Below, piece by piece: positions 55,915 through 64,000 of a stretch of DNA of 64,000 nucleotides. The position numbers and the translations under genes are program-made. The notes below the pieces were generated by a model. That model did not search any database, was not told the DNA's origin, and saw nothing but the letters and a program-made list of their open reading frames with translations. Position 1 is the stretch's first letter; every line of letters begins with the position of its first letter. Source of the stretch: Gammaproteobacteria bacterium (GTDB taxonomy: Bacteria > Pseudomonadota > Gammaproteobacteria > GCA-001735895); assembly GCA_030066085.1 (NCBI GenBank), contig JASJCI010000024.1, forward strand, positions 62,001 to 126,000. The letters run 5' to 3'.

Positions 55915-56102
55915 TCGGCCGCCGGCAGACGAGCTTGCCTGGTTTGCCAGGATCGCACCGCCGGTCGCGGCATCGGTTACGGTGCGCGTATCGCGCAAGC
56001 TCATGTGCAGGTGGCAGGATAAGCATGCCAGGTAGCGATGCCTGACCCTTCGTGGTTGATTTTGGCTATATATAAGGGATGGCATTCCCTCCAAACGGAC
56101 TA

Positions 56103-57233
56103 ATGGTTATGAGTTTCCGTCCCGTGTTGCTGCTGGCGCTGTTGCTGGTCGCTCCCGTGTATGCGGTCGAATTCGATCAACGCGAACGTGCGACGATCGC
56201 GTCACACGGACCCTGGCCGCCACCACCGGTACTTGATGACAGCAACCGGGTATCGGGCAACAAGGCGGCTATTCGCTTCGGCGAAATGCTGTTTTTCGAT
56301 CACGCGCTCGGTGGCGATTCGCGCATGAGCTGTGCCAGTTGCCATGATCCGGGGCGCGCTTTTACCGATGGCCGCACCACCGGTTTCGGTCGGACGCGAC
56401 TGGCGCGTAACACCACTTCGCTGTTGAACCTGGCTGGTAACCGCTGGTTCGGCTGGGGCGGGGAAAACGATTCGCTGTGGGCGCAGAGCATACGACCCAT
56501 TCTCGCGCTCGAAGAAATGGCGAGCACTCCCTTGCTGGTGAAAAAGATCGTGCTCGGTCGCGATCGTTACCGCGAGTATTACCGCGACGCATTCAGCGTC
56601 GCGGCCGCGGACGAGGACAGCGAAATCCTGCTGGTCAACGTCGGCAAGGCGCTCGCCGCCTACCAGGAAACGCTGGTAAGCCCGAGGTCACCGTTCGACG
56701 ATTTTCGCGATGCGCTGCTCGCGGGCGACGAGGCTGCGATGGCGCAATACCCGCGAAGCGCACAGCGTGGACTCAAGCTGTTCATCGGCGAGGGGCGCTG
56801 TTCGGTCTGTCACCTCGGGCCTCGTTTCAGCAATGGCGAGTTCGAAAATGTCGGGATCCCGTTCCAGGTACCGGGCGGAGTCGATCCCGGTCGCTACCAG
56901 GGTATCCAGAAGTTGCTTGCGAACCCGTATAACCGGCTCGGGCCGTTCAACGACGGCAACGCGCAGGACAATGCCGTCGCCACGCGCTCGCTTCGCCCGG
57001 ACGACCGGAACCGTGGCCGGTTCAGGGTTCCCGGTCTGCGGGACCTGGTCGAGACCGCTCCCTACATGCATGACGGCAGCCTGGGCACGCTGGACGACGT
57101 CGTGCGACATTACTCCGAACTCGACGACGAGCTTGCGGGGGCTGGCGCCGACAGATTCCTGCGACCGCTGCGCCTGGACGACCGCCAGGTCGAAGACCTG
57201 ACGGCGTTCCTGCGCTCGCTGAGTGCCTACTGA
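56103..57233 (+). CDS. MauG/cytochrome-c-peroxidase-family dihaem protein
   Basis: Periplasmic dihaem cytochrome of 376 residues, with a Sec signal (FRPVLLLALLLVAPVYA). There are two c-type haem sites: CASCH in RMSCASCHDPGRAF, and CSVCH in GRCSVCHLGPRF. Other landmarks are RRTPTLLN-like ARNTTSLLNLAGNRWFGWGG and the C-terminal RVPGLRDLVETAPYMHDGSLGTLDDVV. The family reduces peroxides or oxidises protein side chains. The start is uncertain among ATGs at 56079, 56103 and 56109; 56103 gives a normal signal peptide. A strong terminator follows. Confidence 0.9.
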   Translation: MVMSFRPVLLLALLLVAPVYAVEFDQRERATIASHGPWPPPPVLDDSNRVSGNKAAIRFGEMLFFDHALGGDSRMSCASCHDPGRAFTDGRTTGFGRTRLARNTTSLLNLAGNRWFGWGGENDSLWAQSIRPILALEEMASTPLLVKKIVLGRDRYREYYRDAFSVAAADEDSEILLVNVGKALAAYQETLVSPRSPFDDFRDALLAGDEAAMAQYPRSAQRGLKLFIGEGRCSVCHLGPRFSNGEFENVGIPFQVPGGVDPGRYQGIQKLLANPYNRLGPFNDGNAQDNAVATRSLRPDDRNRGRFRVPGLRDLVETAPYMHDGSLGTLDDVVRHYSELDDELAGAGADRFLRPLRLDDRQVEDLTAFLRSLSAY

Positions 57234-57314: not shown

Positions 57315-58829
57315 ATGCCTGCTTCCAGGACTATCGCGGTTGGCGGTTTCCAGCACGAGACCAATACCTTTGCGCCGCATCCAGCTGATTTCCATGCTTT
57401 CGAACGTCCTGACGGCTGGCCCGCGCTAACCCGTGGTGACGCGCTGTTCGAGGTCATGCACGGTCTCAATATCCCGCTCAGCGGTTACCTGGCAAGGGCG
57501 CAGGCCGCGGGTCATGACCTGCGGCCGCTGTGCTGGTGTTCGGCCGAGCCCAGTGGCTACGTCACGCGCGACGCTTTCGAGCGCATCGCCGATATGATTT
57601 GCGGCGGGATCGAGGATGCCGGGCAACTCGACGGCGTCTACCTCGACCTGCACGGCGCCATGGTCTGCGAACACCACGAGGACGGCGAGGGGGAGCTGCT
57701 GCGGCGGGTACGCGCGATCGTGGGCCCCGACGTGCCGATCGTGATCAGCCTCGACCTGCACGTCAACCTGACCCGGGCGATGCTCGAATACAGCGACGCG
57801 ATGACGATTTATCGCACCTACCCGCATCTCGACATGGCGGAGACCGGCGCGCGCGCTTTCGACCTGCTGGAGATGCTGATGGCCGGTACGAAACTGCACA
57901 AGGTGCTGCGCAAGATTCCGTTCCTGGTGCCACTGACGTCGCAATGCACGGACTTCGAACCCTGTCGGTCGATCTACCGCGAGGCCGCCGAACTGAGCGC
58001 ACGGGGCGGCGTTGTCAACGTCGAGTTCGGTGCCGGCTTTCCGCCGTCCGATATCGCCGAATGTGGTCCGGGCGTGGTCGCTTACGGTACCGACCGTGCC
58101 GCGACCGAGGCCGCTGCCGAGACCCTGTACCGGCTGGTCGTCGATGCCGAACCCGAGTTCGAATTCGAGTTGCTCAATGCTGACGCGGCGGTTATGCGCG
58201 CGATGGAAATTCATGCCCGACTGCCGGTCGTCATCGCCGATGCGCAGGACAACCCGGGCGCGGGCGGCACCGCGGACACAACCGGCCTGCTCGCGTCCCT
58301 GCTGCGCCAGGGCGCGCAGCGCGCGGTGCTGGCGATGCTCTACGACCCGGAGGTCACCCTGCGCGCGCATGAGCTCGATATCGGCGCCGAATTCGATGCC
58401 GAACTCGGTGCAACGAGCGGCTTTGCCGGTGTCGATCCGCTGCCATGCCGGCTGCGGGTCGAGGCGCTCGGTGACGGCGAATTCGTCTTCACCGGCGAAA
58501 TGCAGCTGAATTCGCGCGCGCAGCTCGGGCCGATGGCGCTGCTGCGCATTGTCGACGAGGTCGCCGACCTGCGCGTCATCGTTGGCAGTTCGCGCTTCCA
58601 GTGCCTCGACCAGGCGATCCTGCGGCACGTCGGTATCGAGCCGTCAGAGCAGGGTATCGTCGCGGTCAAGAGCACGGTGCACTTTCGCGCCGACTTCGAT
58701 CCGATCGCGGAGCAGACGCTGGTCGCGATCGCGCCGGGCGCCAACTACTGCCGGTTGACGGAGATCGGGTATCGCAACCTGCGCGCTGGCGTGCGTCTCG
58801 AACCGGGCGGGCCCGCGCACATCGGCTGA
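57315..58829 (+). CDS. M81-family metallopeptidase (MlrC-like)
   Basis: Zinc-dependent enzyme of 504 residues in the MlrC family, named for the third step of microcystin breakdown but found widely. Metal ligands are visible in GGFQHETNTF, VYLDLHGAMVCE and ISLDLHVNLT. The C-terminal domain carries VIADAQDNPGAGGTADTTGLL and a final NYCRLTEIGYRNLR. The length is normal. In most bacteria members are expected to cleave small peptides or amides; microcystin is unlikely to be the real substrate. Confidence 0.91.
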   Translation: MPASRTIAVGGFQHETNTFAPHPADFHAFERPDGWPALTRGDALFEVMHGLNIPLSGYLARAQAAGHDLRPLCWCSAEPSGYVTRDAFERIADMICGGIEDAGQLDGVYLDLHGAMVCEHHEDGEGELLRRVRAIVGPDVPIVISLDLHVNLTRAMLEYSDAMTIYRTYPHLDMAETGARAFDLLEMLMAGTKLHKVLRKIPFLVPLTSQCTDFEPCRSIYREAAELSARGGVVNVEFGAGFPPSDIAECGPGVVAYGTDRAATEAAAETLYRLVVDAEPEFEFELLNADAAVMRAMEIHARLPVVIADAQDNPGAGGTADTTGLLASLLRQGAQRAVLAMLYDPEVTLRAHELDIGAEFDAELGATSGFAGVDPLPCRLRVEALGDGEFVFTGEMQLNSRAQLGPMALLRIVDEVADLRVIVGSSRFQCLDQAILRHVGIEPSEQGIVAVKSTVHFRADFDPIAEQTLVAIAPGANYCRLTEIGYRNLRAGVRLEPGGPAHIG

Positions 58830-59016
58830 TTCCCCTATTCTCCAGCCCCGTAACTTTGGTCGGAGTAAAGACTCGAATATTGACGCTTACGAAAAATTCT
58901 TTTGCGTGCCGGTCGAGCCTGTGGATCAGGCCGGGTTGAACCGGCGGAGATTCTATATCGCAGCCCTGCAATTCGAAATGCGGCAGCGCGATGGACAGCA
59001 GTACGGCGGGATCTCG

Positions 59017-62000
59017 TTACAGGTCATCGCCCAGGCCGGCGCGCAGCAGCAATTCGAAGAATGCCTCGAAATCGTCGTCGGATTCGTAGCCGGCCACATA
59101 GGACCAGCAATCCCGCCAGACCTCTACAGAGTCGGGAAAACGCGGCATCTGCCTGCGCGCGAGGGCCAGGTACTGTGCCATTTCTTCCCGTGCCTCGTCC
59201 ATGGCGCCAAGGCCGACCAGTGCCGCGGCGAGTTCCGCGCGTACGCTGGGGGGCGGGTAGGGCAGCAAGCGGAAGGTGTCCACGGATCGGCGGAAATCGC
59301 CGGCATTGCGGAAAACGATGCCCGCGTTCCAGGCCATGTAAAAATGGTAGGGGTCACTGCGCAGGCTGAACTCGGCCAGTTTGCAGGCCTCGTCGTGCTC
59401 GCCGATAGCACTGAGCACCCAGGCTTTCTGGTTGTATCCGTCGGGCAGCGCCGGGTTATGTTCGATCGCCTTGTCGGCATGCATCATCGCCCGGGTGAAA
59501 TTGCGCAAAAACACCTGGTGTTCCGCCATGAAGGCGTGTGCCAGTGCGTCGGTGCCATCGAGGTCCAGCGCTTTGCGCAGGTGCTCGCCGGCTTCGGCGC
59601 TGATGGCATCGCGTTCGGTGGTCCAGTTTTCGGTCAGCAGCACGTTCAGCGTTGCACCCAGGATGGCGTGCGCGTTGACGTTTTTCGGGTCGATCGCAAG
59701 GCATTGTTTCATGCCGTCGATGGCGGTGGCGTAGTCCTCGGGATTGAAACGCTCGGCGTGGTACCAGCCGCGCATCAGGTAATCGTAACTCTGCAGATTC
59801 CTGGCCGGCTTTTGCGCGGAGATCAACCTGATACGACGATCGATGCGCGCGCTGATCGTGCCGGCGATGGTTTGTACCAGCTCTTCCTCGAGTTCGATCA
59901 ACTCCTCCGGCGCGATGTCGTAGCGTTTACCCCACAGCTGATCGCCGCCGGCGGTTTCGGCCAGCTGTACCGTGATCCCGATGCGCTCGCCACGCTTGCG
60001 GATACTGCCCTCGACGATGTACTGCGCACCGAGCTCGTCGGCGATTTCGGCGATACTGCGGGAGCTGTCCTTGAAGGCGAAACTCGCGTGGCGGGATTTC
60101 ACGCCGAGTTCCGGGAAAGATCCCAGGCTCAATATCACGCTCTCGGTAAAACCATCGCTGAAATACTCCTGTTCGGGATCGCCGGACAGATTGGTGAAAG
60201 GCAGCACCACGATAGATGGCTGTTCGACTTGATCCTGCTGCAGGTCGTCGCACAGCCCTGCCTGTAACAACTGGTCGAAGTATTCGTCGAAGGCTTGCTC
60301 GGTCGGAAACGTCGAAATGTAGTGAAAGTAGTCGCGCCAGGCTTCTTCCGAGGCCGGCACCCGGGGCATATATTCGCGCGCTTTTTGCAGGTACTCGGCC
60401 ATTTCTGCGCGTGCCTTGTCCGGTAGATCCTGCGCGACCAGGCAGGCGGCAATCTGGGCGTGCACGTTCGGTGTCAACACGGGCATGGTACGAAAAGCCT
60501 CGATTGCTCGCTGGTACATGCCGGCGCAGCGATAGACTTCCCCCGCTGGCCAGCCCGCTTCATTCTGGTACTCGTCGAGCTGCATGCTGACGTCGGCCAG
60601 TTTTACCGCATCTTCCAGGTTACCTTCGGACGCGAGGCAGTCGGCCTTGCAGGCGTGAGCGTAAGACCAGGTCGGGTCCAGTTCGAGCGCGCGGTCCGCG
60701 TGATACCGTTCTTTCTCGCGGTCGCGTTGCAGACCGGCGAGGTCGGATGCAATCGCGTGTGCCAGGGCACTGTTCGGATCCAGGGCCAGTGCCCTTGACA
60801 GGTGCGATTCGATCTCGGCAACGGTTTCATCACGATCATCGCACCAGTTTTCGAATATCAAATCCTCGGAAACTGCGGCGATCAATGCGCAGGCCATGAC
60901 ATTTTGCGGATCGATCTCGAGCGCCTTCTTGTGAAAGTCGATAGCCTTTGCCAGCGCCACTGGCGTATGTTGTTCATAGACGTACCAGCCGCGCATCAGG
61001 TAGTCGAAACTCTTCATGTCGGCGGCTGGTTTTTTCGAAGCCAGTATTCTTACTTCGCGTCCGATCCGGCCGCTGATCGCGCTGGCCAGCGAGCGCACCA
61101 GTTCTTCTTCCAGTTCGAATAGCTCGTCGAGGGGCCTGTCGTATCGTTTCCCCCAGATCTGGTTGCCGCTCTCGACCTCGGTCAGCTGTACCGAGATACG
61201 GACCTGGTTGGCGTTCTTGCGGATGCTGCCCTCGACGATGTAGTCGACGCCGAGTTCGGCGCCGAGATCTCTAACCGACCGTGTGCTGTTGCGATGCGCG
61301 AAGCTGGTATGGCGCGATTTTACCGCCAGGCCGCGCGATGCACTCAATGCGCTGATCAGGCTTTCGGTAATGCCGTCGCTAAAATAATCCTGCTCGGGGT
61401 CGCCGCTCATGTTTTCCAGCGGCAGCACCAGCACCGATGGCTCACCGCCATCGGCTTCTTTCGCAGCTGGTGGAGTGAGCGTATCCTCGAGTCCGGCCGC
61501 GACCAGGCAGTCGATGATTTGCTGGTTATAAGACTGATCGGCGAAGGGCGCGTTGTCGATGGTGTATGCCATCCACTCATCGAGGGTACGGGGCATGGCC
61601 AGCATGCCTGCACGGCAGTTTTCAAGGAAAACCTGCAGGGTCTTGCGAGCCTGGTCGAGGCGACCGAGCATGACGTTAGCGGCGATGTTATAGAGCCGGA
61701 TAAAACTGGGAGCGTTTTTCGACTCCGCGATGATTTCCAGTGCTTTTTCAAACTCGCCGCAACAAAAATGGGATTCCGCCAGGATCCAGTCGGCCCAGGG
61801 ATGATAGGGGTCGAGTTGCCAGGCAAGTTTGGCGACCTCGCGTGCCGCTTCGAATTTGCCCTGCATTTCCAGGTTCATGGCTTTTGTCGTCAGCGCGTCG
61901 GTGTCGTTCGGGTTGATCGTTAAAGCTTTTTCCACGTGCCTGGCGGCCGCCTCGTAGTCACGACAAAAGATCTGGTACTCGGCATATGCCGTGTGAGCCT

Positions 62001-63468
62001 CTCCGTGCTCGTTGCCCAGTTCGACGGCTTTTTCCGCGTGATCGGCGGCGCGCTGGTAAGCGGGCTCGTAATCCTCGATCCAGCGTTCCGCCCAACTCAT
62101 GATATGGCAGAAGTAAAGCCCGGCATGTGCGCGCACGTTGCCAGGATCCAGTTCAAGGCAACGATCGAGACAGTCAATCGCCTTCACCATGTCCCGGCCG
62201 TTGAACTTATTCATATGATACTCGCCGGCGAGCAGCAGATCGTAAGCCTGTTGATCAGAAGCCCCCTTGGCGAGCGCTACACGTTCGAGATCGGAGCCGA
62301 TTTGGCCGGTGACCGTGGTGGCAATCGTCCGGCTCAATTCCTCCTCGAGCTCGAACAGGTTGTCGATTCCAGCGTCGTAGCGTTTGCCCCAGATTTGATT
62401 GCTGCTGCCGGCATCGATCAGCTGCACCGTGATGCGAATGCGATCTCCCGACTTGCGAATGCTGCCTTCGACCAGGTAGTTGACTTCGAGCGCTTCCGAT
62501 ATTTCACCCGGGCTCTTGATCTGTTGTTTGAAGGCGAAGCTGGAGTTACGCGACTTGACCTTGAGAGTCGGAAACAGGGACAGGTTCAAAATGATGCTGT
62601 CGGTGATGCCATCGCTGAAATACTCCTGCTCGGGGTCGCCGGACAGGTTGTCGAAAGGCAGCACCGCGATGCTGTGCTCGGATTGTTTGCCGGTTGGTTG
62701 CGGGCGTACTTCCGCTGCCGGTTCGGGCTTGGCGCGGACTTTACCGCCGGCAATCGCGGCCCGCAGTGCAGTCGTCTCCGCTTCCGGTTCGACCCCCAGT
62801 TCGTCACGCAGGATCTGTTCACAACGTTTGAAAGCTTGCAGGGCACGATTGCGTTCCCCGCTGTCGGCGCAGGCCTGCATCAGCAGTCGCCAGCCGGATT
62901 CGTGCAGCGGGTCCTGCTTGACCAGGCGCTCGGCCGACTGGATCGCGTGGCTATAGTCATGGGTGACGAGCTGGGTCTCGGCAAGGTTTTTCAGGATATC
63001 GATATACTGCCGTTTGAACCGGGCGCGTTCGCTGTCGAGCCATTCCTCGCAGGCCGGGTCGCGGATCTGAATACCTTCCAGGAACTCGCCCTGGTAGAGA
63101 TCGGCGGCGGTGGACAGGGACTCGTAATCACCCTCGAGGCCGAGGCGCTCGAATTCGTGCGCGTCGACCTCGATCAATTCGGACTTCAGGCTGACGGTGT
63201 TGCGATCGACCTGCAGAATCAGGTCGGCGCTGTCGCCGAGCGCCTTTTTCATCGCCGATAGCGCCTGGCGCAGGGAGTTGCGCGCCTGTTCCTCACCGCG
63301 ATCGCTCCACAGCAGGTTGACCAGGCGTTCGCGCGGGTGGCGCAGCCCGGGCGCGAGCGCGAGAAAGGCCAGCAAGACCTCGGCTTTGCGCGTCGATAGC
63401 GGGATTCGATCGTCACCTGACAGCGAACATTCGAACTGTCCGAGTAATTTAAGCTGCAGAGCCCGCAC
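59017..63468 (-). CDS. BTAD-type regulator with three tandem TolB-like/TPR modules
   Basis: Soluble protein of about 1483 residues. Residues 1-95 form a winged helix (LKLLGQFECSLSG, STRKAEVLLAFLALAPG) and about 100-240 a bacterial transcriptional activation domain (BTAD), as in SARP regulators. Three ~400-residue modules follow, at about 265-664, 677-1075 and 1082-1483. Each starts with a TolB-like segment (LPFDNLSGDPEQEYFSDG in module 1; near-identical versions in 2 and 3), continues with VEGSIRK and WGKRYD, then a TPR block, and ends in AGL-x-D-x-L. No membrane helix separates the DNA-binding head, unlike CadC. GTG 63468 is chosen for its AGGGG ribosome binding site; a TTG at 63486 is also in frame. 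Confidence 0.88.
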   Translation of the reverse strand: MRALQLKLLGQFECSLSGDDRIPLSTRKAEVLLAFLALAPGLRHPRERLVNLLWSDRGEEQARNSLRQALSAMKKALGDSADLILQVDRNTVSLKSELIEVDAHEFERLGLEGDYESLSTAADLYQGEFLEGIQIRDPACEEWLDSERARFKRQYIDILKNLAETQLVTHDYSHAIQSAERLVKQDPLHESGWRLLMQACADSGERNRALQAFKRCEQILRDELGVEPEAETTALRAAIAGGKVRAKPEPAAEVRPQPTGKQSEHSIAVLPFDNLSGDPEQEYFSDGITDSIILNLSLFPTLKVKSRNSSFAFKQQIKSPGEISEALEVNYLVEGSIRKSGDRIRITVQLIDAGSSNQIWGKRYDAGIDNLFELEEELSRTIATTVTGQIGSDLERVALAKGASDQQAYDLLLAGEYHMNKFNGRDMVKAIDCLDRCLELDPGNVRAHAGLYFCHIMSWAERWIEDYEPAYQRAADHAEKAVELGNEHGEAHTAYAEYQIFCRDYEAAARHVEKALTINPNDTDALTTKAMNLEMQGKFEAAREVAKLAWQLDPYHPWADWILAESHFCCGEFEKALEIIAESKNAPSFIRLYNIAANVMLGRLDQARKTLQVFLENCRAGMLAMPRTLDEWMAYTIDNAPFADQSYNQQIIDCLVAAGLEDTLTPPAAKEADGGEPSVLVLPLENMSGDPEQDYFSDGITESLISALSASRGLAVKSRHTSFAHRNSTRSVRDLGAELGVDYIVEGSIRKNANQVRISVQLTEVESGNQIWGKRYDRPLDELFELEEELVRSLASAISGRIGREVRILASKKPAADMKSFDYLMRGWYVYEQHTPVALAKAIDFHKKALEIDPQNVMACALIAAVSEDLIFENWCDDRDETVAEIESHLSRALALDPNSALAHAIASDLAGLQRDREKERYHADRALELDPTWSYAHACKADCLASEGNLEDAVKLADVSMQLDEYQNEAGWPAGEVYRCAGMYQRAIEAFRTMPVLTPNVHAQIAACLVAQDLPDKARAEMAEYLQKAREYMPRVPASEEAWRDYFHYISTFPTEQAFDEYFDQLLQAGLCDDLQQDQVEQPSIVVLPFTNLSGDPEQEYFSDGFTESVILSLGSFPELGVKSRHASFAFKDSSRSIAEIADELGAQYIVEGSIRKRGERIGITVQLAETAGGDQLWGKRYDIAPEELIELEEELVQTIAGTISARIDRRIRLISAQKPARNLQSYDYLMRGWYHAERFNPEDYATAIDGMKQCLAIDPKNVNAHAILGATLNVLLTENWTTERDAISAEAGEHLRKALDLDGTDALAHAFMAEHQVFLRNFTRAMMHADKAIEHNPALPDGYNQKAWVLSAIGEHDEACKLAEFSLRSDPYHFYMAWNAGIVFRNAGDFRRSVDTFRLLPYPPPSVRAELAAALVGLGAMDEAREEMAQYLALARRQMPRFPDSVEVWRDCWSYVAGYESDDDFEAFFELLLRAGLGDDL

Positions 63469-63613
63469 AAAACCCCTAAATATCAATCAGTTACAATATT
63501 TAATGATTTTTTAACGATCATTTTGGGCGATTTAACGCGATTCGGCAAGGGATTTAACGACGGCTGTCGACAATGGCACCAACTCAACCGAAACCCGCTA
63601 CGAGGAACCTGCC

Positions 63614-63820
63614 ATGAGAAAAATCAGAAACAACGTCATCGATACCGCGAATCCTTCACTGCTGTTTGCCCGCGGCGTAGAAAGCATCATCCGTGATCCG
63701 ATGATCTCACCGTCCAGCCACGACGCCGACGAAGCCCGTGAAATGATCCACCGCGCCAGTAAGGAATCGACCCGGGGCAATCTGTTCAACTCGCTGTTGC
63801 GCCAGTTCGCCAACCTGTAA
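63614..63820 (+). CDS. Small protein of unknown function
   Basis: Protein of 68 residues, MRKIRNNVIDTANPSLLFAR at the start and GNLFNSLLRQFANL at the end, with a helical middle (SSHDADEAREMIHRASKEST). AGGAACC about seven bases before the ATG and a clear terminator 30 bp after the stop support a real, separately transcribed gene. It is divergent from the large regulator gene by 145 bp, so it may be a target. No family is recognised. Confidence 0.65.
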   Translation: MRKIRNNVIDTANPSLLFARGVESIIRDPMISPSSHDADEAREMIHRASKESTRGNLFNSLLRQFANL

Positions 63821-63849
63821 GCGCAGGGTGATGGCTCGCCGGATTGGCG

Positions 63850-63902
63850 GGAGCAGGTAAGTGCCGGTTGCGGGATTTCCCGGACACTGCCTGCTCCTTT
63901 TT
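63850..63902 (+). terminator. Intrinsic terminator after the small protein gene
   Basis: GGAGCAGG (63850-63857) pairs with CCTGCTCC (63890-63897) at the base of a long hairpin with further pairing inside (CCGG with CCGG), followed by TTTTT. It ends the transcript of the small gene upstream. Confidence 0.8.
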
Positions 63903-63978: not shown

Positions 63979-64000
63979 GTGGGCGTCCTGGAAGAATTCG
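63979..64000 (+). CDS. Start of an unidentified gene (3' partial)
   Basis: GTG at 63979 is preceded by GGAGGAG a few bases upstream and opens a frame reading MGVLEEF to the window end. Only seven codons are visible. Such a start is seen in short-chain dehydrogenases, but that is a guess and no function is claimed. Confidence 0.4.

Follow-up and report, generated by a model that had tools for sequence, protein, structure and literature searches.

The window, that is, the whole stretch of 64,000 nucleotides that was analyzed, carries the gene of a giant SARP-type regulator, in which one DNA-binding head is followed by three TolB_N/TPR modules. This protein is probably, at about 0.72, a cytoplasmic SARP activator of the divergent small gene small68, and it would be gated by its stacked CadC-like modules. 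The architecture itself is real and uncommon, and it represents a variant of SARP regulators that was not known before.

Architecture of the giant regulator

The regulator and its parts were located as follows, with the basis of each assignment in brackets.

59017–63468, minus strand: giant SARP-type regulator, head-A-B-B, 1483 aa (open frame, Pfam, same-locus orthologues)
62683–63468, minus strand: SARP head, OmpR-type winged helix plus BTAD, residues 1–262 (Pfam BTAD, AlphaFold model)
61474–62682, minus strand: module m1, class A, residues 263–665 (profile, tree, CadC-like fold)
60235–61446, minus strand: module m2, class B, fast-evolving, residues 675–1078 (profile, tree, CadC-like fold)
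59020–60234, minus strand: module m3, class B, the last one here, residues 1079–1483 (profile, tree, CadC-like fold)

The frame of the regulator is uninterrupted by stops and begins with GTG, with TTG at 63486 as an alternative start. Pfam matches were obtained for BTAD (E 2.8e-26), TolB_N (5e-9), FlgO (1.5e-7), and numerous TPRs. Short motifs recur along the protein, namely SGDPEQ (residues 276, 688, and 1095), VEGSIRK (333, 745, and 1152), WGKRYD (360, 772, and 1179), and AGL at the module ends (658, 1070, and 1477), and they repeat with a step of 407–412 residues over three rounds. A module profile built from these same three modules scored each of them above 730 bits. The frame, the Pfam matches, the profile, and the recurring motifs bear out the initial annotation, which had described a BTAD head with three TolB-like/TPR modules. 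A transmembrane helix, whose absence had also been claimed, was not found in the regulator, the highest 19-residue Kyte-Doolittle mean being 1.25. Thus, the protein is presumably cytoplasmic.

The three modules, each of approximately 405 residues, share pairwise amino acid identities of 36, 39, and 47%, while their nucleotide identity is 67–71% over partial stretches only; the branch of m2 in the module tree has a length of 0.9. Collapse or expansion of repeats by the assembler, which the initial annotation had named as a possible source of the layout, was excluded because of this low identity between modules and because the gene lies mid-contig, well within a contig of 179 kb. The contigs of several relatives do end inside the array, as an assembly artefact might produce, but the same architecture occurs in independent assemblies, and an artefact is hardly credible as the origin of the array.

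According to the predicted models, the modules are structurally similar to the sensor of CadC. The m1 model was superposed on the CadC sensor domain 3ly8 with Z 22 over 304 residues, and the module models generally matched the periplasmic domain of CadC with Z 22 over approximately 300 residues and an rmsd of 4.2–4.4, ranking above generic TPR structures. The model for contacts between modules reached a pTM of 0.49, at which the inter-module geometry is uncertain. Modules of the TolB/TPR type were found at no fewer than 11 further places in the genome of the window, and thus this type of regulator is expanded there.

The SARP head

A SARP is defined by a winged helix followed by a BTA domain, and this order was found in the head, with the BTAD match given above, a weak Trans_reg_C match, and the folds of AfsR and EmbR. 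The AlphaFold model of the head (pLDDT 86) matched the SARP part of AfsR (8k60) with Z 20.4 and an rmsd of 3.0 Å over 237 residues. The fold is likewise similar to that of EmbR of Mycobacterium tuberculosis (2fez/2ff4; Z 20), a protein that ends in an FHA domain.

In AfsR, the DNA backbone is contacted by W74, Q81, R87, S91, and K95, and sigma region 4 by L243, E246, L247, and V249, while T88 and R92 read bases (PMC10936776). On alignment with AfsR, the backbone-contacting residues were identical in the head (W54, Q61, R67, S71, and K75), and so were the sigma-contacting residues (L220, E223, L224, and V226). Both base-reading positions were changed, T88 and R92 being replaced by Q68 and A72. 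Judged from the sequence, such changes are as expected if the head reads an operator other than that of AfsR. Since the base-reading residues differ, the operator described below was assigned to the head by its position, form, and co-occurrence. Between the head and the first module lies a low-confidence linker of approximately 20 residues (245–263), which would occupy the place of the membrane helix of CadC. A viral origin of the head was considered and rejected, as viral contigs contained no relative of it.

The putative operator between the regulator and small68

The gap between the divergent genes contains the following elements.

63499–63505, plus strand: operator repeat 1, TTTAATG (conserved in 15/15 aligned orthologous gaps)
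63510–63516, plus strand: operator repeat 2, TTTAACG, 11 bp from repeat 1 (sequence, shuffle test)
63531–63537, plus strand: operator repeat 3, TTTAACG, 21 bp from repeat 2 (sequence, alignment, shuffle test)
63553–63559, plus strand: operator repeat 4, TTTAACG, 22 bp from repeat 3 (sequence, alignment, shuffle test)
63569–63574, plus strand: weak -10-like hexamer GACAAT, 9 bp after repeat 4, predicted promoter (sequence, alignment)

The four direct copies follow the heptamer consensus (T/A)TTAA(C/T)G, and a chain of four such repeats was produced by none of 5000 dinucleotide shuffles. Of 15 orthologous gaps, 12 contained all four repeats with the spacing of 11, 21, and 22 bp, and the other 3 contained three repeats; the hexamer reads GAGAAT in most relatives. 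Repeat columns were 96% conserved, compared with 84% at surrounding positions, and as the gap is conserved overall, part of the repeat conservation reflects shared descent. When the genomes were scanned with the first three repeats as the pattern, a single occurrence per genome was found in 19 genomes of the genus, always beside small68, approximately 77–79 bp before it (56 bp in G003). G014 gave one extra weak match, apparently a chance hit. A control scan of the genus genomes with the reversed pattern gave zero matches, and no second operator was found in the genome of the window at up to 2 mismatches.

Published SARP operators consist of heptamers with 4-bp spacers (PMC5930380), in which the repeats are spaced by 11 or 22 bp and the last one lies 8 bp from the -10 element (PMC10936776). 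With 11, 21, and 22 bp between repeats and 9 bp to a weak hexamer, the element found here has the form of a SARP operator, and its binding by this head is putative. The agreement is close but imperfect, given the one interval of 21 bp and the distance of 9 rather than 8 bp to the hexamer. The earlier suggestion that the small gene is the divergent target was strongly backed by this conserved SARP-like putative operator at 63499–63559.

Because the operator lies between divergent genes, with repeats 1 and 2 near the start of the regulator itself, the head might bind the repeats but mainly repress or autoregulate, leaving small68 as a bystander or a co-controlled gene. This is rather unlikely: the last repeat and the -10-like hexamer of small68 are a constant distance apart, even in G003, where a 22-bp deletion removed one operator unit. 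Moreover, the sigma-contacting residues of AfsR are retained in the head, and small68 persists despite changes in the gene content downstream of it. DNA binding by the head, with activation rather than repression, is the inferred mode of action.

small68 and its relatives

The genes flanking the regulator were as follows.

63614–63820, plus strand: small68, 68 aa, likely target (conserved beside the regulator)
63849–63902, plus strand: terminator-like hairpin with a T run after small68 (sequence, fold; suggestive only)
57315–58829, plus strand: MlrC / M81 metallopeptidase gene, convergent, the other syntenic neighbour (Pfam, synteny)

The small gene is real: its relatives were found in 20 of 31 genomes of the genus. 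The protein begins with the conserved sequence MR(K/R)(V/I)(R/K)N and has an LLRQF-like motif at its C terminus. Zero Pfam matches were obtained for it. It co-occurs with the modular regulator wherever contigs allow and is absent with two heads that lack modules. The genes downstream of small68 vary between species. The folding energy of the hairpin at 63849–63902 was no better than that of shuffles. Beyond this hairpin, an aldehyde dehydrogenase gene (63979–64000; L059) follows, as it does in many, not all, sister species.

Paralogues of small68 were also located divergent from three OmpR-type winged-helix TolB/TPR regulators (G016:C116, G007:C153, and G025:C248; L172, L173, and L174). As its relatives adjoin these regulators, small68 is likely a target or partner of the TolB/TPR regulator class generally, and it represents a new family of small proteins accompanying such regulators. 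TTTAACG repeats were absent at the paralogues beside OmpR-type regulators. Inspection of these gaps by eye revealed other repeats, CTTCAT, spaced by approximately 11 bp.

The association with a different head type, together with the full co-occurrence with modular regulators and the absence beside bare heads, also fits an alternative in which small68 modulates the regulator through the TPR grooves of the modules, forming a feedback loop whose valency is set by module number. However, adjacency and the shared operator are accounted for equally well by small68 being a target gene, and the modulator role is considered unlikely. Of smaller probability still, and doubtful, is the broader proposal that the regulator and small68 are a receptor-partner pair with paralogous copies in one genus, in which the modules read small68 or the state of its product and the module number (0 to 7) is tuned while the operator is fixed. 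If true, evolution could change the sensor valency of such a SARP system.

Module number across sister species

The genus sample comprised 31 genomes, and the fragmentary state of metagenome assemblies limits what can be read from it. At the orthologous loci, small68 is divergent on one side, and the MlrC gene is convergent on the other side in most; in the window, a gene for a MauG-like di-haem peroxidase (56079–57233) adjoins the MlrC gene. Complete frames contained 2 modules in G020 and G005, 3 in G002, G023, and the window, 4 in G012, and 5 in G025. When contig ends were joined, G022 had 5 modules (near-overlap with one mismatch) and G017 had 7 (exact overlap of 94 bases), and the head contig of G017 carries a frame break near residue 12. 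A head without modules was found in G029 (L053) and G013 (L052), with 247 and 257 aa, respectively, and neither the operator nor small68 was present in these two genomes. Accordingly, the count of three is not fixed: species differ in how many modules they carry at this locus, and three is one of its states. The G003 orthologue (L051, 7044–8648) has lost an internal part of the head, a premature stop falls in its first module, and it is likely decaying.

The module tree resolved three classes in a fixed order, with A beside the head, B in the middle, and C terminal. Class C terminates every other complete array, while the protein of the window is head-A-B-B without C. The 187-bp gap at 58830–59016, toward the MlrC gene, contained nothing above shuffles that would represent a remnant of class C. 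With outgroups included, A and B were grouped (100/100), and C fell outside both with weak placement. Thus, A and B are products of duplication in this lineage.

Such wide variation in number among species, the loss of the terminal cap in the species of the window, and the two bare heads might be explained by near-neutral drift, in which unequal recombination of tandem repeats changes module number without functional effect. This is improbable, though it carries some weight, because the long frames are all open across 3 to 9 kb, the A-B-C order is preserved, and the classes remain distinct at 36–66% identity. The loci form a natural series in which one regulator carries 0, 2, 3, 4, 5, or 7 sensor copies at the same locus. 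If the modules sense, this series makes the effect of repeat number on a transcription switch directly testable, and its occurrence at modular loci with the small68 operator lifts the case above a mere oddity.

Proposed mechanism and comparison with known systems

In the preferred reading, activation of small68 by a gated SARP, the head would bind the four heptamer repeats, arranged on a lattice of approximately 11 bp between the regulator and small68. It would then contact RNA polymerase at the promoter in the manner of AfsR and switch on small68, and perhaps also its own gene. The three CadC-sensor-like modules would form a cytoplasmic input arm, in which binding of a ligand or partner protein gates the head, and this arm would lengthen or shorten between species through gain and loss of modules. 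Sensing is thereby attributed to the modules and placed in the cytoplasm, both as inferred properties.

The regulator resembles AfsR and other SARP activators (PMC10936776) in its head fold, its motif residues, and a large C-terminal sensor part with TPRs, and its putative operator resembles theirs in having direct repeats at 11/22 bp near a weak -10 element. Unlike AfsR, it lacks the NOD ATPase domain, and its C-terminal part consists of stacked TolB_N/TPR modules. The heptamer TTTAACG, the gammaproteobacterial host, and the neighbour small68, which has no known relation to AfsS, also differ from the AfsR system. AfsR-like activation with 11/22-bp operators would appear to extend to Gammaproteobacteria.

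In the models, each module has the two-part sensor fold of CadC, a ToxR-like transmembrane activator (3ly7–3lya). Unlike CadC, the regulator has no membrane helix or periplasmic sensor, carries three modules rather than one, and has a SARP head rather than a lone OmpR winged helix. Here, AfsR-like activation may be combined with the sensor fold of CadC in a protein that has no membrane anchor. The TolB/TPR part gave a partial match to the HilA/EilA family (NCBIfam NF009037; E 3e-27), and membership was rejected at 95.2 bits against a cut-off of 589.

Distribution outside the genus

Heads of this family were confined to a single genus in the order-level search, and small68 was not seen outside the genus in the same search. 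The wider sample covered another set of approximately 750 genomes from the class and the phylum, with the two best candidates scored per genome, so rarer multi-module cases may be missed. Nearly all matches had a single module, and a two-module protein was present in one genome only (G253). The view that a single module is usual and three in tandem are not was thus upheld in this sample. A frame of 1254 in G512 was rejected as a two-module protein, as it comprises two separate genes, which encode 588 and 587 aa. Open-access literature contained nothing specific on BTAD/TolB/TPR architectures. The G253 protein (L202, 1424–4726), without small68 nearby, consists of a head and two modules and belongs to another family of Gammaproteobacteria. 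BTAD-TolB_N-TPR proteins of Rhizobiales (~670 aa) share the order of head and then module, with heads 31–39% identical to the one described here, but unlike the regulator, these have a single module.
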